64,000 nucleotides of DNA, taken from the NCBI RefSeq assembly GCF_004216695.1, contig NZ_SGXC01000003.1, positions 868,001 to 932,000 on the forward strand, in the 5' to 3' direction. This document shows positions 2,038-46,675 of the stretch, piece after piece; position 1 is the stretch's first letter; every line of letters starts with the position of its first letter. The DNA comes from Pigmentiphaga kullae. Lineage in GTDB: Bacteria > Pseudomonadota > Gammaproteobacteria > Burkholderiales > Burkholderiaceae_B. Under the pieces are notes generated by a model, which did no database searches, was not told the DNA's origin, and saw only the letters and a list, made by a program, of their open reading frames with translations. A program made the position numbers and the translations under genes.

Positions 2038-2111
2038 TGCTTAATGAATCAGTGACTGTTGCCGATAATCCCATCAATGATAGCGTGGGGGCTTTTCCTT
2101 TAGGGCCGAGC

Positions 2112-2990: not shown

Positions 2991-2998
2991 GCGTATCC

Positions 2999-3655: not shown

Positions 3656-3685
3656 AAAACAGAACGGCCCCATACGAGGCCGTTC
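3655..3685 (-). terminator. Intrinsic terminator for the dapB-side transcript
   Basis: A perfect 8-bp stem (GAACGGCC at 3662-3669 with GGCCGTTC at 3678-3685) and an 8-nt loop. Read on the minus strand it is followed by CTGTTTTT, a U-tract, so it terminates transcription arriving from bamE-dapB. It also sits just past the cheB stop and may work weakly in that direction, where no T-run follows. Confidence 0.65.
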
Positions 3686-3690
3686 CAGCA

Positions 3691-3770
3691 GTTGCCAGGG
3701 CGCCGCGGATCCGGCTTTGCCGGTCCGCCAGCGCCGCCCCCTTGAGGGGGCGCCCGAAGGGCGTAGGGGG
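3691..3770 (+). repeat. Intergenic hairpin repeat, copy 1
   Basis: An 80-bp member of a family found six times in this window. It begins with TTGCCAGGG, then GGATCCGGC-TTT-GCCGGTCC (hairpin), GCCGCCCCC-TTGA-GGGGGCG (hairpin) and a third small hairpin ending in GTAGGGGG. It lies between the convergent cheB and dapB genes. There is no coding potential and no transposase nearby. It looks like a REP-type element; its function is unknown. Confidence 0.7.
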
Positions 3771-8730: not shown

Positions 8731-9735
8731 ATGGACGATCGCGCACGTACATTGTTGAAAGCTCTCATCGAGCGTTACATCACAGACGGACAACCTGTCG
8801 GTTCGCGCACGCTCTCCAAGGTCTTCGACCTGTCGCCGGCCACGATACGCAACGTCATGGCCGATCTCGAGGACCATGGCCTGATCCACAGTCCCCACAC
8901 TTCCGCCGGCCGCGTCCCCACTCCCCGGGGCTACCGGATGTTCGTCGATTCCCTGCTGACGGTGCAGCCCTACGAAGTGTCCGAGGCCAGCCACATCCAG
9001 ACCCTGCTGCCTTCGGCGGAACCCCAGCGCGTCATCGCGGCCGCGGCCTCGCTGCTGTCCAAGCTGACCCAGTTCGCCGGCGTAGTGATGTCGCCCAAGC
9101 GCAGCCAGATGTTCCGGCAGATCGAATTCATCCGGCTGTCCGACACGCGGGTGCTGCTGATCATCGTGACGCCCGAAGGCGACGTGCAGAACCGCATGCT
9201 GATGGTCCAGCGCGACTATTCCTCGGCCGAACTGACCGAGGCGGCCAATTTCTTCAACCAGCATTTCAGCGGCAAGTCGTTCGAAGACGTCCGCCAGATC
9301 CTCCAGCAGGAACTCAGCCAGTTGCGCCAGGACATCTCCAGGCTGATGGAACTGGCGGTGGACGCCAGCGCCGAGGCCGCCACCGAGGACGACAGCGTCG
9401 TCATCTCGGGCGAATTGAACCTGCTGGGCGTCTCGGACATCACGGCCGACATGGACAAGCTGCGCCGGATGTTCGAACTGTTCGAGAAGAAGACCGACCT
9501 GATGCAGTTGCTGGACGTGTCCAGCCGGGCGCATGGCGTCCAGATCTACATCGGCGGCGACTCGCAGCTGGTGCCGGTGGAAGAGGTCAGCGTCATCACG
9601 GCGCCCTACGGGGTGGACGGCAAGGTCGTCGGGACCCTGGGCGTGATCGGTCCCACCCGGATGTCGTACGAGCGGGTGATTCCCATCGTCGACATCACCG
9701 CGCGGCTGCTGTCGAACGCGCTGAGCCACCATTGA
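8731..9735 (+). CDS. hrcA: Heat-inducible transcription repressor HrcA
   Basis: Represses class I heat-shock genes by binding CIRCE operators, with GroEL as co-factor. 334 residues from [20 protein letters not shown], with the N-terminal winged helix ([28 protein letters not shown]), the [19 protein letters not shown] signature, and a GAF-like C-terminal domain ending in [21 protein letters not shown] at 8725 would add two residues and is better spaced from the G-run of the adjoining repeat. No CIRCE inverted repeat was seen before grpE or dnaK here, so its targets (probably groESL) lie elsewhere. Confidence 0.96.
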
Positions 9736-9818
9736 GCCGGCGTCCGCCGGCAGCGGCGGACGGCCCTCCCGCCCGCCGCCGTTTCCCCTGTCATTCCTGA
9801 GTCCGGAAAACGCCACGC

Positions 9819-10928
9819 ATGCGCTTCCTTCCCGAGCCGTCGCCGTCCTCCCATCATCCCACCCGCACCGGCCTGCTGCTGGTCAACCTGGGTACGCCCG
9901 ACGCGCCCACCGCCTCCGCCGTGCGGCGCTACCTGGCCGAGTTCCTGTCCGATCCCCGCGTGGTCGAGATTCCCCGCCTGGTCTGGCTGCCCATCCTGTA
10001 TGGCCTGGTCCTGACGCTGCGTCCCCGCGACGCGGCGGCGCGCTACGCCTCGGTGTGGACGTCCGAGGGCTCCCCGCTCCTGGCCTGGAGCCGCCGCCAG
10101 GCCGAGGGGCTGTCGCGCGAACTGTCCGACCGCGGGCTGGGCGTGGAAGTGGCGCTGGCCATGCGCTATGGCAATCCGTCGCTCGAGGCGGGCATCGCCG
10201 CGTTGCGCGAGAACGGCTGCGAGCGCATCCTGGTCCTGCCGCTCTATCCGCAGTACGCGGCCAGCACGACCGCCGCGGTATCCGACGCCGTGGGCGCCTG
10301 CCTGGCGCGGCTGCGCAACGTGCCCGAGATCCGGTACGTGCGCGATTTCCACGCCGACCCGGGCTATATCGAGGCGATGGCCGTCCGCATCCTGGATTTC
10401 TGGCGCGACAAGGGCCGGGGCCGGAAACTGGTGCTGAGCTTCCATGGCCTGCCCAAGCGTTCCATCGCGCTGGGGGATCCGTATCACCAGCAATGCCTGG
10501 AAACCGGCCGCCTGCTGGCCGAGCGGCTGAGCCTGTACGCCGAGCAGGTCGAGGTGACCTTCCAGAGCCGCTTCGGCGCGGCCGAATGGCTCCAGCCGTA
10601 TACTGAGCCCAGGCTCAAGGAACTGGCCAAAAGCGGCGTGTCCGACGTGGACGTGTTCTGCCCCGGTTTCGTCGCCGACTGCATCGAAACCCTGGAAGAG
10701 ATCGCGGTACAGGGCAAGGAAGCATTCCTGCTGGCGGGGGGCCGGCAGCTACGCTATATCGACGCGCTGAACGATTCCGCCGCCTGGATGAAGGCCCTGG
10801 CCAACCTGGCCGAGCGCCACATGCAAGGCTGGATCACCCGCCCCGTGGCCCGCCAGCCGGCCGACGCGGCGCACGCAGCCGTCTTGTTGCAACGCAAAAA
10901 CGACACGACGCCGGCCACGGACCAGTAA
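9819..10928 (+). CDS. hemH: Ferrochelatase
   Basis: Inserts Fe(II) into protoporphyrin IX, the last step of protoheme synthesis. 369 residues; the family core starts at TGLLLVNLGTPDAPT, with the metal-binding His in LVLSFHGLPKRS and the Glu in CPGFVADCIETLEEI. The C-terminal 30 or so residues are a non-conserved tail. It starts 83 bp after hrcA and is followed by hslR after 4 bp, so hemH-hslR are one unit, possibly with hrcA. Confidence 0.96.
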   Translation: MRFLPEPSPSSHHPTRTGLLLVNLGTPDAPTASAVRRYLAEFLSDPRVVEIPRLVWLPILYGLVLTLRPRDAAARYASVWTSEGSPLLAWSRRQAEGLSRELSDRGLGVEVALAMRYGNPSLEAGIAALRENGCERILVLPLYPQYAASTTAAVSDAVGACLARLRNVPEIRYVRDFHADPGYIEAMAVRILDFWRDKGRGRKLVLSFHGLPKRSIALGDPYHQQCLETGRLLAERLSLYAEQVEVTFQSRFGAAEWLQPYTEPRLKELAKSGVSDVDVFCPGFVADCIETLEEIAVQGKEAFLLAGGRQLRYIDALNDSAAWMKALANLAERHMQGWITRPVARQPADAAHAAVLLQRKNDTTPATDQ

Positions 10929-10932
10929 CGGG

Positions 10933-11313
10933 ATGGAAGAACTACGTATCGATAAGTGGCTCTGGGCGGCGCGCTTCTACAAGACCCGCACGTTGGCCCG
11001 GGAGGCGGTCGAGGCAGGGCAGGTGAAGGTGTCCGGCGAACGGGTCAAGCCTTCGCGCGCCGTGCGCCCCGGCGACATCCTGCTGATCCGCGCCGGCGAG
11101 CAGGAGTGGGAGGTCCTGGTCCGCGCCCTGTCTTCCCAGCGCGGCCCCGCCGTTTTCGCGCGCACCCTGTACGACGAAACCCAGCAAGGCCTCAAACGCC
11201 GCCTGGAAGCCATCGAACTGCGCCGCCAGAACGCCGACCCCGCCGCAAACCTGAAAGGCCGCCCCACCAAGCAAGACCGCCGCAATATTGACAGATTGAG
11301 GACCCCCAATTGA
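10933..11313 (+). CDS. hslR: Heat-shock ribosome-associated S4-domain protein Hsp15
   Basis: Binds free 50S subunits carrying nascent chains after heat shock and helps recycle them. 126 residues: an S4 RNA-binding domain at the N-terminus (RIDKWLWAARFYKTRTLA, then VKVSGERVKPSRAVRPGDIL) followed by a basic tail (LKGRPTKQDRRNIDRL). It follows hemH by 4 bp. Its position before grpE-dnaK-dnaJ fits a heat-shock role. The gene ends 3 bp before a large palindrome. Confidence 0.93.
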   Translation: MEELRIDKWLWAARFYKTRTLAREAVEAGQVKVSGERVKPSRAVRPGDILLIRAGEQEWEVLVRALSSQRGPAVFARTLYDETQQGLKRRLEAIELRRQNADPAANLKGRPTKQDRRNIDRLRTPN

Positions 11314-11316
11314 GGA

Positions 11317-11564
11317 CCCCCCCTACGCGCTGACGCGCGCCCCCCCAGGGGGCGATGCGGGTGGACCGGCAAAGCCGGATCCACCGCATCCTGGGTCTAG
11401 TGGGACCATCTTGGGTCGTGGCACGGTTGCTACCGCGGGCAGCCAGCGATAGCAACCGTGCTTCAGTCCAAGATCGTTTCCCTAGACCCAGGAAACCGCG
11501 GATCCGGCTTTGCCGGTCCGCCGGTTTCGCCCCCTGGGGGGCGCGCGTCAGCGCGTAGGGGGGG
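11317..11564. repeat. 248-bp palindrome made of two head-to-head hairpin repeats (copies 3 and 4)
   Basis: This fills most of the 342-bp gap between hslR and grpE. The left arm (11317-about 11400) is the family repeat on the minus strand, beginning CCCCCCCTACGCGC; the right arm (about 11482-11564) is the plus-strand copy ending GCGCGTAGGGGGGG. Between them CTGGGTCTAG faces CTAGACCCAG, and the core GCACGGTTGCTA (11421-11432) pairs perfectly with TAGCAACCGTGC (11450-11461). Outer and inner arms share one centre near 11441. No ORF or transposase lies inside. Extruded or as RNA it would form a very long imperfect hairpin. Confidence 0.85.
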
Positions 11565-11571
11565 AGATATA

Positions 11572-11599
11572 CTTGAAAGCGCGGATTTAGTCCCCATTT
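11572..11599 (+). promoter_or_regulatory. Sigma-32 (RpoH) heat-shock promoter for grpE
   Basis: CTTGAAA at 11572-11578, a 13-nt spacer, then CCCCATTT at 11592-11599: an essentially exact match to the RpoH consensus CTTGAAA/CCCCAT-T. It begins 7 bp after the G-run of repeat copy 4 and 57 nt before the grpE ATG. It should make grpE, and possibly dnaK, heat-inducible. Confidence 0.85.
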
Positions 11600-11655
11600 C
11601 GCAGATAGAGTTCAAGCAAGTCGCTGATTTATTTTGGTTTTTCATGGAGGCACCA

Positions 11656-12222
11656 ATGTCGGCTGAGCACAAGCCTGGCGACCAACCCAATCTGGATCCC
11701 GAAAACGTGAACCCGAACCCGGCGGCGGAAACGCCCGAGGCCGCGGGCAGCGAGGATCCCATCGTCGCGCTGCAGGCCCAGCTGGCCGCGGCCCAGGCCG
11801 AGGCCAAGGACAATTACGATGCCATGCTGCGCGCCCGCGCCGAAGCGGACAATGTCCGCCGGCGCGCCCAGGAGGAAGTCTCCAAGGCGCAGAAATTCGG
11901 TATCGAGGCATTCGCGGAAAACCTGTTGCCGGTGAAAGACAGCCTGGAGGCCGCCCTGGCCCAGGAAAACCAGTCCATAGACAGCCTGCGCGAAGGCGTG
12001 GACGTCACCCTCAAGCAACTGGTCGGCGCCTTCGAGCGCAACAAACTGGTCGAGATCGCCCCGGTTCCGGGCGACAAATTCAATCCGCACCACCACCAGG
12101 CCATTGCGTCGGTTCCGTCGGACGAGCCGGCCAACACGGTCCTGCAGACCCTGCAGAAGGGTTACATGATCGTCGATCGAGTACTGCGTCCGGCACTGGT
12201 AACGGTCGCGGCCGCCAAATAG
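11656..12222 (+). CDS. grpE: Nucleotide exchange factor GrpE
   Basis: Releases ADP from DnaK during the chaperone cycle. 188 residues: an acidic disordered N-terminus (to about 35), a long coiled-coil dimer region (ALQAQLAAAQAEAKDNYD to about 90), and the four-helix/beta-wing domain with PVPGDKFNPHHHQAIASVPS and GYMIVDRVLRPALVTV. The ATG is preceded by GGAGG at 11646-11650 with ideal spacing; an upstream in-frame ATG at 11644 overlaps that site and is rejected. It is driven by the RpoH-type promoter at 11572. Confidence 0.96.
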   Translation: MSAEHKPGDQPNLDPENVNPNPAAETPEAAGSEDPIVALQAQLAAAQAEAKDNYDAMLRARAEADNVRRRAQEEVSKAQKFGIEAFAENLLPVKDSLEAALAQENQSIDSLREGVDVTLKQLVGAFERNKLVEIAPVPGDKFNPHHHQAIASVPSDEPANTVLQTLQKGYMIVDRVLRPALVTVAAAK

Positions 12223-35558: not shown

Positions 35559-36539
35559 TTACTTGTTCTTGTCGCGCTTGTCCAGCAGCGGATCGATCTT
35601 GTTCCGTTCCTCAGTGAGGAATCTGGCGAAGCTGGCCGCGCCGGGGTCCATGGCGCTGGCGCCGGCATCGATGAAGATCCTGTCCACCTTGGGATCGGCC
35701 AGCGCCTTGCCGACGGCTTGTTCGAGGCGGGCGATGACCGCGGGCGGGGTGCCCTTGGGCGCGAACAGGCCAAACCAGCCGTTGAAGTCGAAGTCGGGCA
35801 GGTTCAGCGCTTCGGCCACGGTCGGCACGTCGGGCAGTAGCGGCGATCGGGTCCTGGATGTGACAGCCAGCGCGCGCAGGCGGCCCTCCTTGAGGAACGG
35901 GGCCGCCACGGGGGTGTTGACGAATCCCATCTGCAGCGTGCCGCCCAGGAGGTCGGTCATGGCCTGGGCGTTGCCGCGATAGGGGGTGTGGGTGAATCGG
36001 GCGCCGGTCCGGGCCGACAGCATTTCGCCCGCGATGTGGCTGGAGGTGCCTTCGCCGGGCGAGCCGTACACGAACCGGTCCGGCGATTTCCTGGCTTCGG
36101 CCACCAGCTCGGGCAGCGATTTGACCGGCACCGATGCGTTGACCGTGATGACGTTGGTCATCTTGGCGACCCCCGAGATCGGAACCAGGTCGGTCGCGGG
36201 ATTGAAGCCCAGGTCCGGGAAAAGGTGGGGGTTGGCCACGATGGGCAAGCCGTTGATGAGGATGGTGTAGCCGTCCGGCTTGGCGCGCACGACGTATTCG
36301 GTGCCGATGTTCGTGCCGGCTCCAGGCTTGTACTCGACGATGATGGGTTGTCCGAGTGTCGACGCCATGTGGTCGCCGATGGCGCGCGCAAAGACGTCCG
36401 AGGATCCCCCCGCTGCGCCGCCGATGATCATCCTGATCGGTCGGGTGGGGTAGGCATTCTCCGGTTGGGCCGCGTGGGCGCCGCCAGACATGGCGACCAT
36501 GAGTGCGAAGCAGCAGGCCTTGAGTCGTGTATTACGCAT
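35559..36539 (-). CDS. Bug-type (TctC) periplasmic solute-binding protein
   Basis: 326 residues with a signal peptide (CCFALMVAMSGGAHAA), then YPTRPIRMIIGGAAGGSSDVFAR, VEYKPGAGTNIGTEYV and LLPDVPTVAEALNLPDFDF. Second of two tandem Bug genes transcribed away from the catabolic operon at 37902-45896; 101 bp downstream of the first. The two share the same GAGTNxG ligand-loop pattern and are probably duplicates with related ligands. No TctAB genes adjoin. Confidence 0.92.
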   Translation of the reverse strand: MRNTRLKACCFALMVAMSGGAHAAQPENAYPTRPIRMIIGGAAGGSSDVFARAIGDHMASTLGQPIIVEYKPGAGTNIGTEYVVRAKPDGYTILINGLPIVANPHLFPDLGFNPATDLVPISGVAKMTNVITVNASVPVKSLPELVAEARKSPDRFVYGSPGEGTSSHIAGEMLSARTGARFTHTPYRGNAQAMTDLLGGTLQMGFVNTPVAAPFLKEGRLRALAVTSRTRSPLLPDVPTVAEALNLPDFDFNGWFGLFAPKGTPPAVIARLEQAVGKALADPKVDRIFIDAGASAMDPGAASFARFLTEERNKIDPLLDKRDKNK

Positions 36540-36640
36540 GGTACGTATTCTCCTGGCGTTGTCCGCCGGTCCACCGTTGGATGCCCGGCGCGAGGCAGGT
36601 CACGGTTCCCTGCTCGAGCATCCTGTTTTCTCGGGGCGGT

Positions 36641-37615
36641 TTATTTGTTGGCGGATGCGCCTGATTGCTTCACCAATTCCGTCAGGCGCTCGGTGTCCGC
36701 GCGCAGTGTGCGCGCGAAGTCTGCGCTCGATCCGCCAACCACCTCGGCGCCCGCCTTCACGATCGTCTCGCGCGAGGAAGGATCTGCCAGTGCCTGGGCC
36801 GAAGCCTTGTGCAGCGTGGCGATGATGTCGTTGGGCGTGCCGGCCGGGGCCAGCAGGCCGAACCAGCCTGTGAGTTCATAGTCGATGCTCAGTGCCTCGG
36901 CCACCGTGGGTACATCGGGCAGCAGCGACGAACGGGTCGCGGACGTGACCGCCAGCGGTCTCAGCTTGCCGGATTTCACGAACGGCAAGGCCACGGGCAG
37001 GTTGACGAAGCCGACTTCCAGCAATCCTGCCAGGTGATCGTTCGTTGCCTGGGCGTTGCCTTGGTAGGCCACGTGCGTCAGCTTGGCGCCTGTCTTCATT
37101 TCGAGCAGTTGGCCGGACAGGCTGGCGGAGCTGCCGAAACCGGGCGAGCCGTAGTTGTACTTGCCGGGGTTCTTCTTTGCCAGTGCTATCAGTTCCTTCA
37201 GGCTGTGGACTGGTAGCTGGGGGTTGACCGTGATCACGTTGGACATGGCCGCGGCTTCGATGATCGGCGTCAGGTCTTTCAGCGGGTTATACGGCAGGTC
37301 CGGATACAACACCTGGCTGGTTGCCATCGAGATGCCATTGAGCAGCAGCGTGTAGCCGTCCGGTGCCGCCTTGGCCACGTAGTCGCTGCCGAGGTTGGTG
37401 CCGGCGCCGGCCTTGTATTCCACGATGAAGGGCTTGCCCATGGACTCTTGCAGCTTCATCGCAAGCAGCCGAGCAACGATGTCCGAAGTGCCTCCGGCCG
37501 CAGCCGGAACGATGATCCGGACCGGTTTGCTGGGGTAGGGCTGCGCGTTGGCCGTTGCGGGAAGGATCGCGGCGGCGGCCACGATGTGCAAAGAGGCTAG
37601 AAGAGGTCGAAGCAT
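36641..37615 (-). CDS. Bug-type (TctC) periplasmic solute-binding protein
   Basis: 324 residues: signal peptide (LLASLHIVAAAAILPATANA), then YPSKPVRIIVPAAAGGTSDIVAR, VEYKAGAGTNLGSDYVAKAAPDGY and LLPDVPTVAEALSIDYELTG. It is divergent from the flavin monooxygenase gene; a copy of the 13-bp operator lies 66 bp upstream of its start. This placement suggests it captures the substrate of the adjacent pathway, presumably a carboxylate. Confidence 0.92.
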   Translation of the reverse strand: MLRPLLASLHIVAAAAILPATANAQPYPSKPVRIIVPAAAGGTSDIVARLLAMKLQESMGKPFIVEYKAGAGTNLGSDYVAKAAPDGYTLLLNGISMATSQVLYPDLPYNPLKDLTPIIEAAAMSNVITVNPQLPVHSLKELIALAKKNPGKYNYGSPGFGSSASLSGQLLEMKTGAKLTHVAYQGNAQATNDHLAGLLEVGFVNLPVALPFVKSGKLRPLAVTSATRSSLLPDVPTVAEALSIDYELTGWFGLLAPAGTPNDIIATLHKASAQALADPSSRETIVKAGAEVVGGSSADFARTLRADTERLTELVKQSGASANK

Positions 37616-37680
37616 GGTGGTTCCTCGGTTGTGTTCGAGAGGGCGGCAACCGCCGCGTCGGCATCCTGAGGATGTCTTGT

Positions 37681-37693
37681 TTTGTACACAATC
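37681..37693 (-). promoter_or_regulatory. GntR-type operator before the tandem Bug genes
   Basis: TTTGTACACAATC, containing TTGT-AC-ACAA, which fits the yGT-N2-ACr pattern of GntR/FadR-class operators. It is the exact reverse complement of 37877-37889. It lies 66 bp upstream of the Bug gene start, in the promoter zone. Confidence 0.6.
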
Positions 37694-37876
37694 AAATCCT
37701 AATACTTATTTTGTCGATTGGTTCATTGTTCTGGTGAAAACCCTGATGAAATTCGTGGATTCACCATTTTGGCGTTTGTTTATGAGGCTTTGCGCTTCAT
37801 TGGTGCATGGAGGGGGAAGTTATAAGAGGAACTGAAGGCTGGACTAGTGCTTTCCTTTGGATCATAATTTTTCCAA

Positions 37877-37889
37877 GATTGTGTACAAA
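37877..37889 (+). promoter_or_regulatory. GntR-type operator before the catabolic operon
   Basis: GATTGTGTACAAA, the exact reverse complement of 37681-37693, ending 12 bp before the monooxygenase ATG. In this position a bound repressor would block transcription or initiation. The GntR/FCD regulator encoded at 45878-46624 is the obvious candidate. Confidence 0.6.
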
Positions 37890-37901
37890 GTGAGAAAAAG
37901 G

Positions 37902-39098
37902 ATGTCCAAAGCTAGAGTGCTGGTGGCCGGGGCTGGCCCGGTGGGCCTGGTCAGTGCCATGGTGCTGGCCGATGCCGGGATCGAAGTCGAGTTGTTCGAG
38001 CGCAATGCCAGCGTGATGGAAGACCTGCGCGCCTCGACCTTTCATCCGCCCACCCTCGATATGCTCGATCGCTATGGCATTGCCGACCCCCTGGTCGAGG
38101 CCGGCCTGAAGGCGCGCTACACCCAGCAGCGTGATCGCCGCAAGGGATTGATCGCCGAGTTCGATCTGTCGCGGCTGACCGGCAGCACCAAGTACCCGTT
38201 CCGGTTGCAATGTGAGCAATGGAAGCTCAACGATGAACTGGTCAGGAAGCTGGCCAGCTATCCGAATGCCAGGGTGCGGTTCGGCTGCGCGGTCGAGTCG
38301 GTGCGGCAGGACGAAGGCGGCGTTACGGTGCAATTGCGCACGGCCGATGGCACCGAGACCGCCCGCGGCGACTTTCTCATCGGCGCGGACGGCGCCTGGA
38401 GCTCGGTGCGCAACAGCGTCGGTATCGATTTCGAGGGCTACACCTATCCCGAGCGTTTCCTGGTGGTGTCGACGCAGTTCCCGTTCGAGCAGCACTTCGA
38501 GAACTTGTCGCTGGTGAACTACATCTCGGATCCGGAGGAATGGTGCGTGCTGCTCAAGGTGCCATCGCTGTGGCGCGTGCTGTTTCCCACGCCCGAGCAT
38601 GAGTCCGACGAGCAGGTCCTCTCGGATGCCGTCATCGAGCGACGCCTGCAAGGCCTGTTGCCCCAGCCGCAGCCCTACCAGATCGTCCACCGCACGCTGT
38701 ACAAGGTGCACCAGCGCGTGGCCGCGCAGTTCCGCAAGGGACGGGTACTGCTGGCGGGAGATGCCGCGCACATCAACAATCCGCTGGGCGGCATGGGCAT
38801 GAATGGCGGCGTGCACGACGCTTTCAACCTGACCGGCAAGCTGATCGAGGTCCTGGCCGGGCGCGCGCCCATCGAACTGCTCGATTTGTACGAGCGCCAG
38901 CGCCGCACCGTCGCGATCGAATACATCAACGCCAACACCGCGCGCAACAAGAAGATGATCGAAGAGCGCGACGAGACCGCGCGCACCCGTATTCACGACG
39001 AGCTGCGCGCGACCGCGACCGACCCGGCAGCGTCGCTGGACTATATCCGCAAGACCTCGATGTTCGACGCGCTGGAGCGCGCGGCGGAAATTGCATGA
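37902..39098 (+). CDS. FAD-dependent aromatic-ring-type monooxygenase
   Basis: A class A flavoprotein hydroxylase (PHBH fold) of 398 residues, expected to use NAD(P)H and O2 to hydroxylate a cyclic substrate. FAD-binding GAGPVG at residues 10-15, the DG motif in LIGADGAWSSVRNS, and the GD motif with D287 in LAGDAAHINNPLGGMGMNGG. Start MSKARVLVAG was chosen over an upstream TTG because the operator lies between them. First gene of an operon; its stop overlaps an ATG (ATGA) 18 bp before the hydrolase start. The substrate is not deducible; 6-hydroxynicotinate- or pyridoxate-type hydroxylases are relatives by fold. Confidence 0.88.
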   Translation: MSKARVLVAGAGPVGLVSAMVLADAGIEVELFERNASVMEDLRASTFHPPTLDMLDRYGIADPLVEAGLKARYTQQRDRRKGLIAEFDLSRLTGSTKYPFRLQCEQWKLNDELVRKLASYPNARVRFGCAVESVRQDEGGVTVQLRTADGTETARGDFLIGADGAWSSVRNSVGIDFEGYTYPERFLVVSTQFPFEQHFENLSLVNYISDPEEWCVLLKVPSLWRVLFPTPEHESDEQVLSDAVIERRLQGLLPQPQPYQIVHRTLYKVHQRVAAQFRKGRVLLAGDAAHINNPLGGMGMNGGVHDAFNLTGKLIEVLAGRAPIELLDLYERQRRTVAIEYINANTARNKKMIEERDETARTRIHDELRATATDPAASLDYIRKTSMFDALERAAEIA

Positions 39099-39115
39099 CC
39101 CAAAGGGGGAATGAC

Positions 39116-39730
39116 ATGGATGAGCTGGATATCTACCAGCGTCAGGGCCTGGGGCACGAAAGCGGCGTGGGACGCCAGTGCGGGCTGGTGCTGGTCGATT
39201 TCATCAACGGTTTCGTCGATCCGGCGCTGCTCGGAGGCGCGCACGTTAGCGAGGCGGCGCAACGTACGCAGGGCCTGTTGCATGCCTTTCGTGAGCGCAA
39301 CTGGCCAGTGGCGCATGCGCGGATGGTGTATGCGGAGGACGGCAGCGACCACAACGTCTTCTGCCGCAAGACGCCGAGCCTGACCCGGTTCACCGAAACA
39401 GCCGATTGTTCGCAGATCGTCCCAGGGCTCGCGCCAATCTCCGGCGAATACATCGTGCGCAAGCAAGGCGCCTCGGCTTTTTTCGCGACAGGCCTGGCCG
39501 ACTGGCTGCGCGGCAAGGGCGTCGATACCGCCGTGGTGGTTGGCTGCACCACCAGCGGCTGCGTGCGCGCCACGGCGCTCGATGCCATGCAGCACAACTT
39601 CCTGACCGTGGTGGTGGCCGATTGCGTGGGCGACCGCGCGGTGGGCCCGCACCGGGCCAGCCTGTTCGACATGGGACAGAAGTATGCGGACGTTATGGAT
39701 CGCGACGAGCTGATTTCACTTTTTTCTTGA
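39116..39730 (+). CDS. Isochorismatase-family cysteine hydrolase
   Basis: A 204-residue amidohydrolase-type enzyme of the isochorismatase superfamily, which includes maleamate amidase NicF and N-carbamoylsarcosine amidase. The catalytic triad is in place: D28 (VLVDFINGF), K116 (IVRKQGASAFF) and C149 (CTTSGCVRATALDA), with the expected cis-peptide region before the Cys. AAAGGGGGA lies 5 nt before the ATG at 39116; a coupled ATG at 39095 is the alternative. Following a flavin monooxygenase and preceding a racemase-fold protein, it mirrors part of the nicotinate pathway, suggesting it releases ammonia from an amide intermediate. Confidence 0.87.
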   Translation: MDELDIYQRQGLGHESGVGRQCGLVLVDFINGFVDPALLGGAHVSEAAQRTQGLLHAFRERNWPVAHARMVYAEDGSDHNVFCRKTPSLTRFTETADCSQIVPGLAPISGEYIVRKQGASAFFATGLADWLRGKGVDTAVVVGCTTSGCVRATALDAMQHNFLTVVVADCVGDRAVGPHRASLFDMGQKYADVMDRDELISLFS

Positions 39731-39740
39731 GGAGCAAGCC

Positions 39741-40481
39741 ATGGATCACCTGGGTTATCGGATGAAGTTCGGCGTGATTGGGCCGTCGACCAATACCATC
39801 GTGCAACCGGATTTCGACGACATGCGTCCGGTGGGCGTCACCAACCACTACAGCCGCATCGAGATTCCCGACTTCAAGGTCGACAGCGACGAAAGCTTCG
39901 TGCACATGATGGAGTCGATCTCGGGCAACACCATGCAAGCGGCCAGTGTGCTCAAGACCTGCGAGATGCAATATCTGATCATGGGCATGTCGGCGGTGAT
40001 GTTCTGGGGAGGCAAGAAAGGAGCGCAGGCGTATCTGGATAAGATGCGTGAACACGTGGGGGTGGAGGTGAGCTGCGGTTCGTTCGCGTTGGAGGCAGCG
40101 TTGAATGCCTACGGCGCGCGCAGGATTGCCTTTCTTTCTCCCTACTACCCCGTGGCGAACGCGGAGGCGCGGCAGTTTTTCGAGGATTGCGGCTTCACGG
40201 TCGTGCGCGACATCTGCCTGCGCCGTCCGAGCCCGGTCCAGATCGCGCATACCACCGATCAGATGTGCCGCGACGCGATCAACGAGCTCAATGGCGATGA
40301 CGTCGACGCCATCGTGCAGCTCGGCACCAACCTGTCCATGGTCCGGCTGGCCGCCGCTGCCGAGCTCTTTCTGGACAAGCCCATCATCGCGATCAATACC
40401 GCCACGTACTGGCACGCGCTGCGCCAGTGCGGCATCCAGGACAAGGTCCAGGGCCTGGGACGTTTGTTGTCGCATTACTGA
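39741..40481 (+). CDS. Asp/Glu-racemase-fold protein (maleate isomerase/arylmalonate decarboxylase-like) without catalytic cysteines
   Basis: 246 residues of the Asp/Glu racemase superfamily. The opening KFGVIGPSTNTIVQPDF and the C-terminal half SMVRLAAAAELFLDKPIIAINTATYW match maleate cis-trans isomerase and arylmalonate decarboxylase. The first catalytic position is Gly82 (LIMGMSAVMFWGG), as in arylmalonate decarboxylase, but the second, normally Cys, is Gly195 (VQLGTNLSM). Both cysteines of maleate isomerase are thus missing, so a standard thiolate mechanism is not possible. It may use different chemistry or bind rather than convert a ligand. It is 10 bp after the hydrolase gene. Confidence 0.82.
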   Translation: MDHLGYRMKFGVIGPSTNTIVQPDFDDMRPVGVTNHYSRIEIPDFKVDSDESFVHMMESISGNTMQAASVLKTCEMQYLIMGMSAVMFWGGKKGAQAYLDKMREHVGVEVSCGSFALEAALNAYGARRIAFLSPYYPVANAEARQFFEDCGFTVVRDICLRRPSPVQIAHTTDQMCRDAINELNGDDVDAIVQLGTNLSMVRLAAAAELFLDKPIIAINTATYWHALRQCGIQDKVQGLGRLLSHY

Positions 40482-40499
40482 GCAAGGCCAGGAGATTTC

Positions 40500-41822
40500 A
40501 TGATTCGCTATCTCAAGCGCGGCCGTGACGTCCAGGCCCGTGCCAACGACGACGCCGCCGTCCGCAATACCGTCGAGGGCATCATCCGCGACATCGAAGC
40601 GCGCGGCGATGAAGCCGTTCGCGCATACAGCAAGAAATTCGACAACTGGGATCCGCAGGACTTCCGCCTGTCGCAGCCGGCCATCGAGCGGGCGATGAAG
40701 AGCCTGTCGTCCGGCGAGCTGGACGATATCCGCTTCGCTCAAACGCAAGTGCGCAACTTCGCCCGGATCCAGCGCGAATCCATGCTGGACGTGGAGGTCG
40801 AAACCCGTCCCGGCGTATTTCTGGGGCACCGCCACATTCCGCTCAACGCGGTCGGCTGCTACATCCCCGGCGGCAAGTATCCGCTGCTGGCATCGGCGCA
40901 CATGAGCGTGTTGACAGCGAAGGTGGCGGGCGTGAAGCGGGTGGTGGCGACCGCGCCACCGTTCCATGGCGAGCCGCATCCGGCCATCGTCGCCGCCATG
41001 CATATGGCGGGCGCGGACGAGATCCTGGTGCTGGGCGGCGTGCAGGCCGTGGTGGCGATGGCGGTCGGCACGTCATCCATCGCGCCGGTGGACATGCTGG
41101 TCGGCCCGGGCAACATGTTCGTGGCGGAAGCCAAGCGCCAACTGTTCGGCCGCGTGGGCATCGACCTGTTCGCCGGCCCCACCGAAACCCTGGTCATCGC
41201 GGACGACTCGGTGGACGGCGAAATCTGCGCGGTCGACCTGCTTGGACAGGCAGAACATGGACCGACCTCGCCGGCCGTGCTGCTGACCGACAGCGAAGCG
41301 CTGGCGCGCGCCACCATGGCCGAAGTGGAACGGCAGCTCGAGCGCCTGCCTACCGCCGAAGTCGCGGCGCGTTCGTGGGTGGAGTTCGGCGAGGTCATCG
41401 TCTGCGATACGCGGGAAGAAATGCTGCAGAAGGCGGATGAGCTGGCCTCGGAGCACGTGCAGGTGATGACCCGCGATCCGGACTGGTTCCTGCAAAACAT
41501 GACCAACTATGGCGCGCTGTTCCTGGGGCCGCGCACCAATGTCGCCTTCGGCGACAAGGTGATCGGCACCAACCACACGCTGCCCACCAACAAGGCGGCG
41601 CGTTACACCGGCGGCCTGTGGGTCGGCAAGTTCCTGAAGACCTGCACCTTCCAGCGCGTGACGACCGATGCGGCCAGCGCCGAGATCGGCGAATATTGCT
41701 CGCGCCTGTGCCACATGGAGAATTTCGCCGGACATGGCGAGCAGGCCAACATCCGTGTGCGCCGCTATGGCAACCGGCCGGAACTGCCGTGGTACGAGCC
41801 CGTGCCGGCCTCGCAGCCATGA
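40500..41822 (+). CDS. Histidinol-dehydrogenase-like NAD-dependent dehydrogenase (not HisD)
   Basis: 440 residues of the HisD family. Zn ligands appear kept: Q250 and H253 ([11 protein letters not shown]), Asp in [15 protein letters not shown] and His in [11 protein letters not shown]; the catalytic Glu-His pair is in LASEHVQVM. The context (no his genes; monooxygenase, hydratase and lyase neighbours) and the [14 protein letters not shown] segment point to the HpsN-like branch that oxidises a primary alcohol to an acid in catabolism. AGGAG precedes the ATG; its stop overlaps leuC (ATGA). Confidence 0.88.
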
Positions 41823-43222
41823 CCACTCTATTCGACAAGATCTGGGCAGAACACACGGTCGCCCGCAATGATTCCGGCGAAGACCTGATCTACATCGACC
41901 GGCACCTGGTGCAGGAGGTGTCCAGCCCGCAAGCCTTCGCAGGCATGGCCGAGGGCGGCCACGCGCTGCGCTCGCCGCGGCGGCACATCGCGGTGCAGGA
42001 TCACAACGTGCCCACCACGGCCGACCGGCTGTCGAACATTCCCAATGCGGAAAGCCGGGAGCAGATCGCCACGCTGCGGCGCAATACCCGGAGCACGGGC
42101 ATGCGCCTGTTCGACCTCGACCATCCGCTGCAAGGCATCGTGCACGTGATCGCACCGGAGCTCGGCTACGTGTTGCCGGGCAGCACCGTGGTCTGCGGCG
42201 ATTCGCACAGCGCCACGCTGGGCGCGCTGGGCGCGGTAGCATGGGGTATAGGCACCTCGGAAGTGGGCCATGTCATGAGCACCCAGAGCCTATGGATGCG
42301 CAAGCCGGAAACGATGGGCGTCTCGATGACGGGGCAATTGTCGGCGGGGGTCTATGCCAAGGATCTGGCATTGGCCCTGATCCATCACATCGGCACCAGC
42401 GGCGGAAATGGCCATGGCATCGAATACCTGGGACCGCTGGTGCGGGCGCTGTCGATGGAGGCGCGGCTCACGCTGTGCAATATGACCATCGAGGCCGGGT
42501 CGCGTTTCGGCCTGGTCGCACCAGATGCCACTACGCTGGCTTATCTGCGCGAGCGGGTCCAGGGCGCGGCGCGCGAACATTTCGAGCAGGCGGCGCAGGC
42601 CTGGGCCGCGCTGCGCACCGATGACACGGCTGACTACGACCGTTATGTCGAGTTCGACGCGAATGCGGTCACGCCGCTCGTGACCTGGGGTACCAGGCCG
42701 GCCGACAGCGCCCCGTTCTCGGGCCGCGTGGGCGACGGTGCCGCGCCCAGGGACGGCGCCGATCTCGACCGCTTGCGGGAAAGCCTGGCCTATATGGGCC
42801 TTGAGCACGGCCAGCCGCTCGCTTCGGTGCCCATCGACGTGGCCTTCATCGGCTCGTGCACCAACGGTCGCCTGGAAGACCTGCGCGCCGCTGCGCAGGT
42901 GGCGCGCGGCCGCCGCGTCGCCGCAGGCGTGCGCGCGCTGGTGGTGCCGGGCTCGACCAGTGTCAAGCGCGCGGCCGAGGCCGAAGGCCTGGCGCAGGTT
43001 TTCGTCGACGCGGGATTCGAGTGGCGCGAGTCGGGCTGTTCCATGTGCATAGGCATGAACGGCGACAGCCTGATGCCGGGCCAGCGCTGCGCGTCCACCT
43101 CCAACCGCAATTTCGAGAACCGGCAGGGGCAGGGGGGGCGCACTCACCTGATGAGCCCCGCCGCGGTCGCGGCATCAGCCCTCCGGGGCCGCCTGGCCGA
43201 TCCTCGGGAGTACCTGGCATGA
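41819..43222 (+). CDS. leuC: LeuC-like large subunit of an aconitase-family (de)hydratase/isomerase
   Basis: 467 residues with the [4Fe-4S] ligands C347 (FIGSCTNGR), C407 and C410 ([10 protein letters not shown]), the same numbering as E. coli LeuC, and QDHNVPTT and [14 protein letters not shown] motifs. With the small subunit just downstream it forms a heteromeric hydro-lyase. It may be a leucine-pathway isopropylmalate isomerase, but no leuB or leuA is present and the neighbours are catabolic, so a citraconate- or dimethylmaleate-hydratase-like role is more likely (inference). It overlaps both flanking genes by 4 bp. Confidence 0.88.
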
Positions 43223-43824
43223 AAGCCGTCACAGCAGAAGTCCATGGCCGTGCCGTCCTGTTGGCGCGCGACGACATCGATACGGATGCCCTGTTTCCCG
43301 GCCGCTTCCTGCGCGCGGTGCACCGCACGGGGCTGGGGGCGCACCTGTTCGCCGACTGGCGGGCCGAAGGCCGGCCCGAGGTGGCCTTCATGGAGCAGGC
43401 CGCGCCGCCCCGCGTGCTGGTAGCGCTTTCCAACTTCGGCTGCGGATCGTCGCGCGAACATGCGGTCTGGGCGCTGGCGGACTATGGCGTACAGGCGGTG
43501 GTGGCGCTTTCCTTCGGTGACATCTTCCGCAACAACTGCGTCAAGAACGGTCTGCTGCCCGCCACGGTGACGCCGGCCGACCACCAGCGCCTGGTGCGCG
43601 CGTTGGCGGGGCTGACCGAGCCCATCCTGCACCTGCGGGTGGCGCAGCGTAGCCTGACGCTCCCGGATGGCGGCGCGATCCCGATCGCACTGGCCGACGG
43701 CCATGCGGAACAACTGCTTTCCGCCGAGGACGAGGTGGACCGCACCTTGCGCCATGACGCGGCGCTGCGTGCCCACGAAGCCCGCATCCAGCGCGACCAG
43801 CCCTGGCTGGCGTCCATGGACTGA
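43219..43824 (+). CDS. leuD: LeuD-like small subunit of an aconitase-family (de)hydratase/isomerase
   Basis: 201 residues: the swivelling domain with [19 protein letters not shown]-type opening ([13 protein letters not shown]) and the substrate loop [16 protein letters not shown], followed by [16 protein letters not shown]. It pairs with the LeuC-like subunit (ATGA overlap). As for its partner, the catabolic neighbourhood argues against a leucine-synthesis role, although sequence alone cannot exclude it. Confidence 0.88.
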
Positions 43825-43858
43825 ATTCAATTCTTTTTCTTCGCTTAGTGGAACCCGC

Positions 43859-44722
43859 ATGGCCAACCCGATTCTCAGACAAAAACTCTCCAGCGGCGAA
43901 TTCATCGTCATCCCGGGCGTGCAGGACATGATCGCCACCATCATGACTGCCAAGGTCGGCTTCGACATCGTCTACGGGTCGGGCTATTGGCTCACGGCCT
44001 CCAACCTGGGCCTGCCGGACGCCGGCATCGCCACCTATACCCAGATGGTGGACCGCATGCGAACCATCGCGCGCACCACCTCGGCGGCATTGATCGCCGA
44101 CGCGGACACCGGCTATGGCGGCCTGCTCAATGTGCACCACACCGTGCGCGGCTACGAAGAAGCCGGCGTCACCGCCATCCAGCTGGAAGACCAGGAGTTT
44201 CCCAAAAAATGCGGCCACACGCCCAACAAGCGTTGCGTGCCGATCGAGGACATGGTCGACAAGATCAAGGTCGCCTGCGATGCCCGGCAAGACAAGGAGA
44301 ACTTCCTCATCATCGCCCGCACCGATGCGCGCGCCAGCCTGGGGGTGGACGCCGCCATGCGCCGCATGGAAGCCTATGCAAGAGCCGGCGCCGATATCCT
44401 GTTCTTCGAGGCCCCCCAGAGCGAAGAGGAAATGCGCCGCGTTTGCCAAGCCTTCGACCTGCCCATGATCGCCAACATGGCCGACGGCGGCAAGACCCCG
44501 ATCCTGCCGGCCCACGTGCTCAAGGAAATCGGCTTCTCGCTCGCGATCTTTCCGGCCATGACCAGCCTGGTCGCGGCCGCTGCGATGGAAAAGGCGCTGC
44601 GTCACCTCAAGGAGACGGGCACCAGCCTGTCGCCCGACATCCCCATGGCCGATTTCAGGGAGTTCTGCGAACTGATCGGCTTCAAGGAAGTGTGGGATTT
44701 CGAGAGGCGCTGGGCGCGCTGA
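43859..44722 (+). CDS. Isocitrate lyase/PEP mutase superfamily C-C lyase
   Basis: A 287-residue (beta/alpha)8 enzyme. The active-site loop EFPKKCGH (KKCGH at 116-120, catalytic Cys118) and the Mg-binding DADTGYGG (81-88) place it with 2-methylisocitrate lyase and 2,3-dimethylmalate lyase rather than PEP mutase. It would cleave a 2-hydroxysuccinate-type acid into pyruvate or glyoxylate plus a second acid. The LeuCD-like hydratase directly upstream parallels the DmdAB-Dml pair of anaerobic nicotinate breakdown. Gap to leuD is 34 bp. Confidence 0.87.
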   Translation: MANPILRQKLSSGEFIVIPGVQDMIATIMTAKVGFDIVYGSGYWLTASNLGLPDAGIATYTQMVDRMRTIARTTSAALIADADTGYGGLLNVHHTVRGYEEAGVTAIQLEDQEFPKKCGHTPNKRCVPIEDMVDKIKVACDARQDKENFLIIARTDARASLGVDAAMRRMEAYARAGADILFFEAPQSEEEMRRVCQAFDLPMIANMADGGKTPILPAHVLKEIGFSLAIFPAMTSLVAAAAMEKALRHLKETGTSLSPDIPMADFREFCELIGFKEVWDFERRWAR

Positions 44723-44741
44723 CGCCGTCGGGAGTCCGAAC

Positions 44742-45896
44742 GTGGACAGGTTCGAGTTTTCCACCGTACCGCAATTGATCGTGGAACGCGGCGCTGCGCG
44801 TCGCCTGGGGCGGTTGCTGCGGGCCCGTCATACCGCCGTGCGCCTGTGCCTGGTCACGGACCGCTTTCTGCACGCCAGCGGTTTGCTGGCGCCCGCGCTG
44901 GCCGATTTGCGGGACCAGGGCTGGGAGGTCACCGTCATCGACGACGTGGTGGCGGACCCGCCCGATCATGTGGTGGCGAAAGCGGCTGATCGTGCCCGCG
45001 AAGCCAGGGCGCAGGTCGTGCTGGGCCTGGGCGGTGGATCGTCGATGGACGTGGCCAAGCTCATCGCTGTGCTTTGCGGCTCGACCCAGCCCCTGGCCGA
45101 GATGTATGGCATAGGAAAGGTGGCCGGTCCGCGCCTGCCGTTGGTCCTGATGCCCACCACGGCGGGCACGGGTTCCGAAGTGACGGCGATCTCGATCGTG
45201 ACGACGGGCGAGACCAGCAAGAGCGGAGTCGTTTCGCCGATGCTGATGGCGGACCTGGCCATCCTGGATGCCGAGCTGACGGTGGCGCTGCCCATCGCCG
45301 CGACGGCGGCGACGGGCATAGACGCCATGGTGCATGCGATCGAGGCCTATACGTCGGCGCGATTGAAGAATCCGCTGTCCGACATGCTGGCCACGCGCGC
45401 CCTGAAGTTGCTGTCGAAGCATCTGCTGCTTGCCTGCCGCGAGCCCTCGAATCTCGGCGCGCGCGAGGCCATGCTGCTCGGCGCCATGTTGGCCGGGCAG
45501 GCATTCTCTAACGCACCTGTCGCGGCGGTGCATGCATTGGCCTATCCCCTGGGTGGGCATTTCCACGTGCCGCACGGATTATCGAATGCCCTGGTTCTGA
45601 ATCACGTGCTGCGCTTCAATCTTCCCGCCGCGCGGCCGATGTACGCGCAACTGGCGCGCGTGACGCTGGGAGAGGGCGCGGGTGCCGATGATGGGGCGGC
45701 CGACGGCTTCATCCATCATATGGAAGAGCTGGTGCGTGCGACGGGCATTCCTCGCCGTTTGCGGGAAGTCGGCGTGGCGCGGGTTGACCTTGCCATGCTC
45801 GCGCGCGATGCCATGCAGCAGCAGCGGCTGCTGGTCAACAATCCACGGCCGGTGTCGGAAGCCGACGCCCTGGCCATTTACCGAGCAGCGTTCTGA
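44742..45896 (+). CDS. Iron-containing (group III) alcohol dehydrogenase
   Basis: 384 residues of the Fe-ADH family: the dinucleotide motif LGLGGGSSMDVAK, PTTAGTGSEVT, and metal ligands in TGIDAMVHAIEAY (Asp, His), HALAYPLGGHF and VPHGLSNAL. It would interconvert an alcohol and an aldehyde with NAD(P)H; the metal ligands argue for a FucO-like alcohol dehydrogenase rather than a maleylacetate reductase. Start is GTG at 44742, seven bases after GGGAG. Last gene of the operon; it overlaps the convergent GntR gene by 19 bp. Confidence 0.88.
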   Translation: MDRFEFSTVPQLIVERGAARRLGRLLRARHTAVRLCLVTDRFLHASGLLAPALADLRDQGWEVTVIDDVVADPPDHVVAKAADRAREARAQVVLGLGGGSSMDVAKLIAVLCGSTQPLAEMYGIGKVAGPRLPLVLMPTTAGTGSEVTAISIVTTGETSKSGVVSPMLMADLAILDAELTVALPIAATAATGIDAMVHAIEAYTSARLKNPLSDMLATRALKLLSKHLLLACREPSNLGAREAMLLGAMLAGQAFSNAPVAAVHALAYPLGGHFHVPHGLSNALVLNHVLRFNLPAARPMYAQLARVTLGEGAGADDGAADGFIHHMEELVRATGIPRRLREVGVARVDLAMLARDAMQQQRLLVNNPRPVSEADALAIYRAAF

Positions 45897-46624
45897 TCCG
45901 TAGGGGGCGAGGAGCGTTCGAGCAGCGCGAACTGGGCCGACCTCAAATGGCCGTGCATGACCGCGCGCGCCCATTCCGGGTCGCGTGAGGTAAAGGCATC
46001 GATCAGTTCCCGATGATGCTGGAAGGTGCGCGCAAGGCGGGCGCGGTCGTAGCTGCGCCGCGTCAGCAGAATGATCTTGATGTCCACGCCCTTGGTGCGC
46101 ATGGCCAGCAGCCGCGCGTTGCCGGCGGATTCGGAGATGCGCGCGTGGAAGTTCCGGTTCAGCGGGGCGATGCGATCCAGGTTGGAGGCACTGATGTCCG
46201 GGCCGCGTGATTCCATCTCGTCCTGGATCTCGTGCAGTTCGGCCAGCGTGGCCGGGCTCATGCGGGTCGCGGCCAGGGCGGCCAGTTCCGATTCGATCAG
46301 GATGCGCACCGCGTAGAGATCCCGGATCTCCTGGGTGGTCCAGGTCCGTACGGTGGCGCCCGCATTGGCGCGCAGGATCAGCAGGCCATCGGCCACCAGC
46401 AGCCTGAGCCCTTCGCGCACCGGCGTGCGCGACAATCCCAGCGCTTCCGAGACTTCTTTCTCCGTGATGCGCGCGCCTTCGGGAAACCTGCCGGAGATGA
46501 TGCCGTCCCGCACGTACGCGTAGGCTTGTTGGACGGACGAGGCCCGCGTGGTCAAGTCGGAGGACAGCGAGTACGTATCGGACGAGAGCGTCGGCACGGA
46601 CGAAGTTTTCGAAGTAGGGGGCAT
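45878..46624 (-). CDS. GntR-family (FCD domain) transcriptional regulator
   Basis: 248 residues: a disordered 30-residue leader, an N-terminal winged HTH (QQAYAYVRDGIISGRFPEGARI, EALGLSRTPVREGLRLL) and an all-helical FCD ligand domain with the metal-binding Asp/His set (NRNFHARI, HHRELIDAF, MHGHLRSAQ). It adjoins and faces the catabolic operon, whose two divergent promoters share a GntR-like operator, so it is the likely repressor, released by a carboxylate intermediate. A TTG at 46639 would add five residues. Confidence 0.9.
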   Translation of the reverse strand: MPPTSKTSSVPTLSSDTYSLSSDLTTRASSVQQAYAYVRDGIISGRFPEGARITEKEVSEALGLSRTPVREGLRLLVADGLLILRANAGATVRTWTTQEIRDLYAVRILIESELAALAATRMSPATLAELHEIQDEMESRGPDISASNLDRIAPLNRNFHARISESAGNARLLAMRTKGVDIKIILLTRRSYDRARLARTFQHHRELIDAFTSRDPEWARAVMHGHLRSAQFALLERSSPPTDQNAAR

Positions 46625-46675
46625 ACGCGCGGCAGCCAAGCTTGGTGCGACAACTATAGCGGATATGCCGCCTGG

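Follow-up and report, generated by a model that had tools for sequence, protein, structure and literature searches.

A candidate catabolic cluster for a small N-heterocyclic acid or amide in Pigmentiphaga kullae

Gene layout and a putative operator

We analyzed a stretch of 64,000 nucleotides (referred to as the window) from the Pigmentiphaga kullae genome (6.22 Mb in five contigs), which carries a compact cluster of catabolic genes. Gene calls and Pfam assignments in this 64-kb window place two Bug (TctC) genes on the minus strand, divergent from a run of eight plus-strand genes. These encode, in order, a flavin adenine dinucleotide (FAD) monooxygenase, an isochorismatase-fold amidohydrolase, an Amdase-family protein (the 'fold protein' below), a HisD-family dehydrogenase, LeuC, LeuD, a PEPM/ICL-family lyase and an iron-type alcohol dehydrogenase (Fe-ADH). 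A GntR/FCD gene converges on feADH at the end of the run, overlapping it tail to tail by 19 bases (45878–45896), for a total of ten structural genes and one regulator, or 11 genes. Within the run, hisD and leuC share 4 bases, as do leuC and leuD, and the remaining gaps are 17, 10, 18, 34 and 19 bases with the starts chosen here. A preliminary description of the sequence had proposed tandem Bug genes divergent from a catabolic operon packed with ATGA overlaps or gaps under 35 bp. All the genes it named are present, on the strands it gave and with the expected Pfam families, the packing is as tight as it claimed, and its GntR/FCD regulator matches both a GntR helix-turn-helix and an FCD domain; its view of the locus as one regulated catabolic unit stands. 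PepSY, Iso_dh, methyltransferase and cytochrome bd genes immediately flank the cluster (Table 1 lists the features).

The sequence ATTGTGTACAA occurs exactly twice in the 6.22-Mb genome, once per strand, and both copies lie in the gap between bug2 and the monooxygenase gene, while the pattern read backwards has no copy in the whole genome. With one mismatch allowed, the window still contains two copies against 0.12 expected, and only one of 100 shuffles reaches two. Of six congener loci at this site, five (L039–L043) keep the pair; the sixth, L048, where a short contig carries part of the cluster, lacks both copies. FCD regulators presumably bind sites of TTGT..ACAA shape, and we take ATTGTGTACAA to be a putative operator. 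Promoter-like sites (2, vs 2.0 in shuffles) and terminator-like sites (8 vs 7.1) showed no excess over chance.

Table 1. Positions of the cluster's genes and operator-like sites in the window, with the evidence for each.
Feature	Position	Strand	Evidence
bug1, TctC/Bug periplasmic binding protein	35559..36539	-	Pfam TctC 2.7e-73; same-site congener matches 77-95% identical
bug2, TctC/Bug periplasmic binding protein	36641..37615	-	Pfam TctC 1.1e-71
Operator-like site ATTGTGTACAA, upstream of bug2	37682..37692	-	One of two exact genome copies; kept in L039-L043
Operator-like site ATTGTGTACAA, 13 bases before monooxygenase ATG	37878..37888	+	Second of two genome copies; kept in L039-L043
FAD monooxygenase (PnpA/HspB-like)	37902..39098	+	FAD_binding_3 5e-68; start agrees with L040-L042 starts
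Isochorismatase-fold amidohydrolase, probably NicF-like	39116..39730	+	Isochorismatase 5e-40; 104/198 residues identical to 3OT4/3UAO
Maleate-isomerase/AMDase-fold protein without isomerase cysteines	39741..40481	+	Amdase 2.8e-12; Foldseek best 2XED
HisD/HpsN-superfamily NAD (nicotinamide adenine dinucleotide) dehydrogenase	40500..41822	+	Histidinol_dh 2.1e-137; best PDB HpsN 8V35
LeuC-like aconitase-family large subunit	41819..43222	+	Aconitase 1.4e-161
LeuD-like small subunit	43219..43824	+	Aconitase_C 1.6e-26
PEPM/ICL-superfamily C-C lyase, KKCGH motif	43859..44722	+	PEP_mutase 2e-42 (frame begun at 43844)
Iron-type alcohol dehydrogenase (feADH)	44742..45896	+	Fe-ADH 2.3e-43
GntR/FCD regulator, convergent	45878..46639, alternative start 46597	-	FCD 3e-23, GntR 2.3e-14

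Enzyme families of the plus-strand run

The best PDB matches of the monooxygenase are PnpA (6AIN) followed by HspB (7DA9), the 6-hydroxy-3-succinoylpyridine 3-monooxygenase. The closest solved relatives of the amidohydrolase, 3OT4/3UAO, carry the database label putative isochorismatase; we take them to be the maleamate amidohydrolase NicF, which would make the window enzyme NicF-like. The 'nicotinate-like front end' of the preliminary description is borne out for these two enzymes. The isomerase step is unsupported (below), and ring opening is unproven because none of the ten structural genes belongs to a ring-cleaving dioxygenase family: by Pfam, all ten belong to families other than that of the dioxygenase NicX. 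The LigB dioxygenase family has 18 matches over cut-off in the whole genome. Three further monooxygenase paralogues, 61, 54 and 48% identical, lie at C1:1313806-1314990, C3:226037-227209 and C4:92765-93961, the first of them being accompanied by separate fold-protein, Bug and amidohydrolase genes.

The AlphaFold2 model of the fold protein has a predicted local distance difference test score of 94.3. Foldseek aligned it best to 2XED with a template-modelling score of 0.87, and its nearest folds are maleate isomerase and arylmalonate decarboxylase (AMDase), which refines the earlier name of racemase-fold protein. In a profile alignment to 4FQ7 and 2XED, the two maleate isomerase cysteines correspond to Met83 and Gly195, the first with low per-residue confidence. 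Whatever the exact register, none of the 44 relatives' sequences has a cysteine at residues 76–100 or 186–205, and no cysteine is invariant across the fold-protein alignment. Cys74 is kept in 39 of the 44, and MAFFT aligns it to the first isomerase cysteine, leaving the second opposite a gap. Because Cys74 precedes the strand in the AlphaFold2 model we set this pairing aside, and in our judgement Cys74 is probably not the equivalent of the first isomerase cysteine. The genome's own NicE-like protein (L008) has both cysteine motifs. Given the missing cysteines at the isomerase positions in all 44 sequences, we rejected a cysteine-dependent isomerase or racemase. At two related loci a second Amdase-family protein, nearer to the EutA/AMDase models, accompanies the fold protein (L134:16654-17403 and L163:14496-15380). 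An apparent oxoprolinase beside the fold protein in L113 was discarded, as Pfam gave DNA polymerase III alpha.

These properties bear on a hydroxypyridine pathway proper, in which the monooxygenase would open or hydroxylate a pyridine ring in the manner of nicotinate degradation and the later genes would process a maleamate-like product. PnpA and HspB as best solved relatives, the NicF-like amidohydrolase and the maleate-isomerase fold all fit such a route; the lack of a ring-cleaving dioxygenase in the cluster and of cysteines at the isomerase positions does not, and we regard it as doubtful.

Among PDB entries, the HisD-type protein is closest to the sulfopropanediol dehydrogenase HpsN (1.7e-122), with HisD entries following at 3.9e-75, which refines the earlier name of HisD-like dehydrogenase. 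It passes the NCBIfam hisD cut-off (447.3 vs 243.8), and its metal ligands and Glu-His catalytic pair are kept relative to both HpsN and the genome's other HisD. In the alignment to 8V35 (whose chain numbering is one above the paper's, as checked on Glu318/His319), a leucine stands at the position of HpsN His126, the residue that recognizes the sulfonate and marks HpsN (PMC11382572). We therefore rejected an identity with HpsN, the 2,3-dihydroxypropane-1-sulfonate (DHPS) 3-dehydrogenase. Another HisD match (35–39% identity) is present in all 11 genomes of the genus while the window type is found in only two, its own included, and so a role of the window copy in histidine synthesis appears unlikely.

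Both leuC (594.6 vs 560.25) and leuD (131.1 vs 116.25) pass their NCBIfam cut-offs. Leucine synthesis is nevertheless an unlikely role for the window pair, since the genome has five LeuC matches, that is, four besides the window copy. The lyase carries a K-[KR]-C-G-H motif kept in all ten aligned lyases, and scores below the NCBIfam prpB cut-off (262.5 vs 354.4). The preliminary description likened this part of the run to the hydratase and lyase of dimethylmalate breakdown. A hydratase plus a C-C lyase with its motif kept is indeed what we find, but the dimethylmalate comparison is unsupported because the lyase scores higher with 4IQD, 1ZLP and methylisocitrate lyases than with 3FA3, the entry named 2,3-dimethylmalate lyase, which ranks eleventh of 18 matches (150.3 bits, against 199.9 for the best).

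The same site in the genus and related loci elsewhere

One congener (L039) keeps the cluster, with proteins 90–99% identical to those of the window. At the same site three others (L041, L042 and L043) have only bug, monooxygenase, lyase, amidohydrolase, fold-protein and gntR genes, and in L040 (congener G191, 9129–11994) no amidohydrolase lies between the fold protein and the lyase. The flanks of L040–L043 match the cytochrome bd, methyltransferase and Iso_dh genes of the window; the PepSY gene adjoins bug1 in both the window and L039, whereas L041–L043 have it at the gntR end. In trees of hand-picked loci, monooxygenases from this site fall into a single clade (100/100). The lyases do not: that of the window groups with L039, L060 and the distant genome G924 (L205) with support of 100/99, and those of the congeners with other Burkholderiales. 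Lyase trees were built from 50 rows and then from a hand-picked 24, leaving out low-score, short-span and stop-codon matches; long rows that met near the window's lyase in the 50-row tree were removed from the 24-row tree, and the clade was unchanged. The amidohydrolases also fail to form one clade, although in a tree with a very long row (L085) inside the group; the leuC tree, like those of the monooxygenase and amidohydrolase, used hand-picked loci.

Iso_dh, cydA and cydB of L041/L042 are 98–99, 99 and 96% identical to those of the window, while the L039 flanks, as far as they are present, give 97% for cydA and 93% for cydB. The operon proteins show the opposite relation, with 71–83% identity to L041 for shared genes other than the lyase and the 90–99% noted above to L039. 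Because the flanks are nearer to L041/L042 while the whole operon is nearer to L039, the simplest account seems to be that congeners exchanged the entire operon as one block. The lyase would have changed, and HisD, LeuCD and Fe-ADH would have been gained or lost, before that event. On the same grounds we dropped the idea that the front end was inherited and the back end swapped. In L048 (congener G198, 1601–3703), a partial fold protein (152 aa) adjoins a bug gene whose match splits in two; its 6.6-kb contig gave no monooxygenase, lyase or amidohydrolase match, by decay or an assembly effect.

Outside the genus, a fold-protein match at E 1e-20 was found in 44 of 268 genomes of the family, many with only distant paralogues, and at 1e-40 in 10 of 399 genomes of the order; the monooxygenase matched at 1e-80 in 5 of 398 genomes drawn from the phylum (each count includes P. 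kullae itself). The loci named here are the best 80 of at least 555 confirmed, were chosen by the fold protein alone and had their gene order taken from tblastn. Metagenome bins from Comamonadaceae and other Burkholderiales (including Limnohabitans and Polaromonas), plus Alphaproteobacteria, make up most of them, and many carry titles suggesting lake or pond samples. The title of one (L110, Klebsiella pneumoniae) is probably wrong, its neighborhood matching that of L105 (titled Gammaproteobacteria bacterium). At an 80-bit limit, the monooxygenase accompanies the fold protein in 49 of the 80, the amidohydrolase in 45, the lyase in 44 and LeuC in 11. In the 48 loci that span 15 kb or more, stricter scores gave 31, 27, 27 and 6, respectively; where the fold protein is at least 65% identical, monooxygenase, amidohydrolase and lyase occur together in 18 of 24 loci. 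The fold protein stays with the monooxygenase even in L127 and L130, two loci that have neither amidohydrolase nor lyase. Since L039 keeps the cluster at high identity and its parts recur in many other loci, the grouping is more than chance. The ten-gene set itself is lineage-specific, the window-type HisD being confined to 2 of the 11 genus genomes.

Recurring partners in parts of the family are PuuE-like proteins, lactamase-fold hydrolases, short-chain dehydrogenases/reductases (SDRs) and branched-chain-type ATP-binding cassette transporters. PuuE-like cyclic amidohydrolases occur in 12 of the 80 loci, all with the monooxygenase and five of them without the amidohydrolase. Such partners are expected if an imide or lactam gets opened; they favor a cyclic imide or lactam stage and count further against the hydroxypyridine route. 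SDRs (10 of 80) and metallo-beta-lactamase-fold hydrolases (13 of 80) would suit vitamin B6 (pyridoxine) degradation via pyridoxolactone, which proceeds by SDR, lactonase, monooxygenase and side-chain oxidation. One representative of each scored far below the NCBIfam cut-offs for 4-pyridoxolactonase (44.8 vs 325) and pyridoxal 4-dehydrogenase (98.4 vs 325), however, and no such partners are among the window flanks examined, which are the PepSY, Iso_dh, methyltransferase and cytochrome bd genes. We consider this route very improbable and rejected it on the partner scores.

Other oxygenase types also stand beside the pair of amidohydrolase and fold protein (HpaB in L049; a luciferase type in L116, in addition to the FAD monooxygenase), and a PrpD-like protein lies near the monooxygenase and fold protein in L054. 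Among plasmids, 8 of 42 listed matching regions were examined. On annotated plasmids of Novosphingobium and Thioclava the monooxygenase adjoins an 'arylmalonate decarboxylase', a Roseomonas plasmid has it with isochorismatase-type hydrolases, LeuCD and a gene labeled oxaloacetate decarboxylase, and the five other regions hold few of the families each.

The later part of the run is linked to the core in several loci. LeuC is accompanied by a lyase in 11 of 11 loci among the best 80 (8 of 8 at the stricter score), and two distant LeuC types adjoin the same core, one 46–75% and the other, far more distant (L101, L121), 31–33% identical to the window LeuC. L060 (a Xylophilus bin) has monooxygenase, amidohydrolase, fold protein, aldehyde dehydrogenase, LeuC, LeuD and lyase, which is the order of the window with an aldehyde dehydrogenase in place of HisD; its contig stops after the lyase, so the presence of Fe-ADH cannot be judged there. 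An aldehyde dehydrogenase likewise accompanies monooxygenase, fold protein, lyase and LeuCD in L134. Within about 20 kb, G924 (L205, L209) encodes relatives of LeuC (46%), LeuD (37%), the lyase (63%), Fe-ADH (53%), the monooxygenase (48%) and the fold protein (52%), together with two isochorismatase-type proteins (30 and 38%), PuuE-like proteins and an aldehyde dehydrogenase (37% identical to that of L060). Two independent modules could instead share the locus, an N-heterocycle front end beside an unrelated dicarboxylate back end. This would account for the same-site congeners, which have the front end, a lyase of another clade and none of the rest, and for the rarity of the window-type HisD in the genus. 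The constant company of LeuC and lyase near the fold protein, the nearly identical sets of functions combined in L060 and G924 and the overlapping genes in one run all speak against it, and we think such an arrangement unlikely.

A possible pathway and its relation to known routes

We give about even credence to the view that the cluster serves to take up and degrade a small N-heterocyclic acid or amide under GntR/FCD control, its substrate and step order being inferred from the genes. A Bug protein would pass the compound to a membrane transporter encoded elsewhere, and the FAD monooxygenase would hydroxylate the ring, possibly by the ipso hydroxylation that we assume for PnpA and HspB, to give an imide, a lactam or a ring-opened amide. 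The NicF-like enzyme would then free ammonia from a maleamate-like half-amide. For the fold protein, a chemistry other than cysteine-based isomerization is predicted, with decarboxylation and hydration as candidates. The HisD-type enzyme, whose place is taken by an aldehyde dehydrogenase in L060, may form a carboxylate by oxidizing an aldehyde or primary alcohol. LeuCD would hydrate a substituted maleate to a malate homologue, which the lyase would cleave to pyruvate or glyoxylate plus a second acid, and Fe-ADH may handle a small aldehyde or alcohol by-product.

Several points weigh against this scheme. At the site, four congeners (L040–L043) have no HisD, LeuCD or Fe-ADH, and one of them (L040) has no amidohydrolase either; their shorter version implies that not every proposed step is needed at the locus. 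Neither HisD-type nor Fe-ADH genes were found among the best 80 loci at the 80-bit limit, the fold protein occurs without the monooxygenase (17 of the 48 longer loci), and where its identity is below 65% the trio of monooxygenase, amidohydrolase and lyase is found in only 4 of 24 loci. The window cluster has no PuuE-like gene; six matches (28–36%) lie elsewhere in the genome. Among the matches listed, NCBIfam cut-offs are reached only by hisD and leuC/leuD-type models, names that our favored reading sets aside.

More tentatively, the related loci may encode an aerobic route, widespread among Proteobacteria and so far undescribed, that degrades N-heterocycles of the pyrrole or imide type. Its flavin monooxygenase would yield a substituted maleimide or hydroxylactam, an imidase and a half-amidase would free ammonia, the cysteine-less fold enzyme would contribute a new chemistry, and interchangeable HisD-type/aldehyde dehydrogenase and LeuCD modules would feed one C-C lyase.

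Known pathways resemble the cluster in part. The aerobic nicotinate (nic) pathway, with the roles of NicC/HspB, NicF and NicE, shares an FAD monooxygenase of the same superfamily, a NicF-like amidohydrolase and the maleate-isomerase fold; unlike it, the window cluster is without a ring-cleaving dioxygenase or cysteines at the isomerase positions and adds HisD-type, LeuCD, lyase and alcohol dehydrogenase genes. Anaerobic nicotinate fermentation by Eubacterium barkeri uses dimethylmaleate hydratase and dimethylmalate lyase, a LeuCD-type hydratase followed by a PEPM/ICL-type lyase when likened by description rather than by the E. barkeri protein sequences, whereas the window has an oxygenase front end. 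Cyclic imide degradation proceeds by an imidase plus a half-amidase; a PuuE-like cyclic amidohydrolase stands beside related clusters and a half-amidase-like enzyme is in the window, but the window cluster has an oxygenase and no imidase-like gene. Arthrobacter IN13 has a kpi cluster for 4-hydroxypyridine, whose ring is opened by KpiC, then KpiB (PMC7356986). This cluster also begins with a FAD_binding_3 monooxygenase and has hydrolases later; the available part of that report names no LeuCD, HisD-type or C-C lyase step for kpi. Among the open-access matches listed (titles and starts of abstracts), we found no described operon with this gene set, in keeping with the earlier statement that no pathway with the complete set was known, and no paper on dimethylmaleate hydratase, dimethylmalate lyase or maleate hydratase.

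Every enzyme family of the cluster is known, while the combination and at least two of the subfamilies appear to be uncharacterized. Family models at present name the set arylmalonate decarboxylase, 3-isopropylmalate dehydratase, histidinol dehydrogenase and methylisocitrate lyase-like. If confirmed, the proposed pathway would explain what a gene set that recurs in Burkholderiales and Alphaproteobacteria does. It would also assign a chemistry both to the cysteine-less branch among maleate-isomerase-fold proteins and to a HisD-type dehydrogenase without the HpsN signature. The leucine and histidine names that these paralogues receive automatically would then need correcting.

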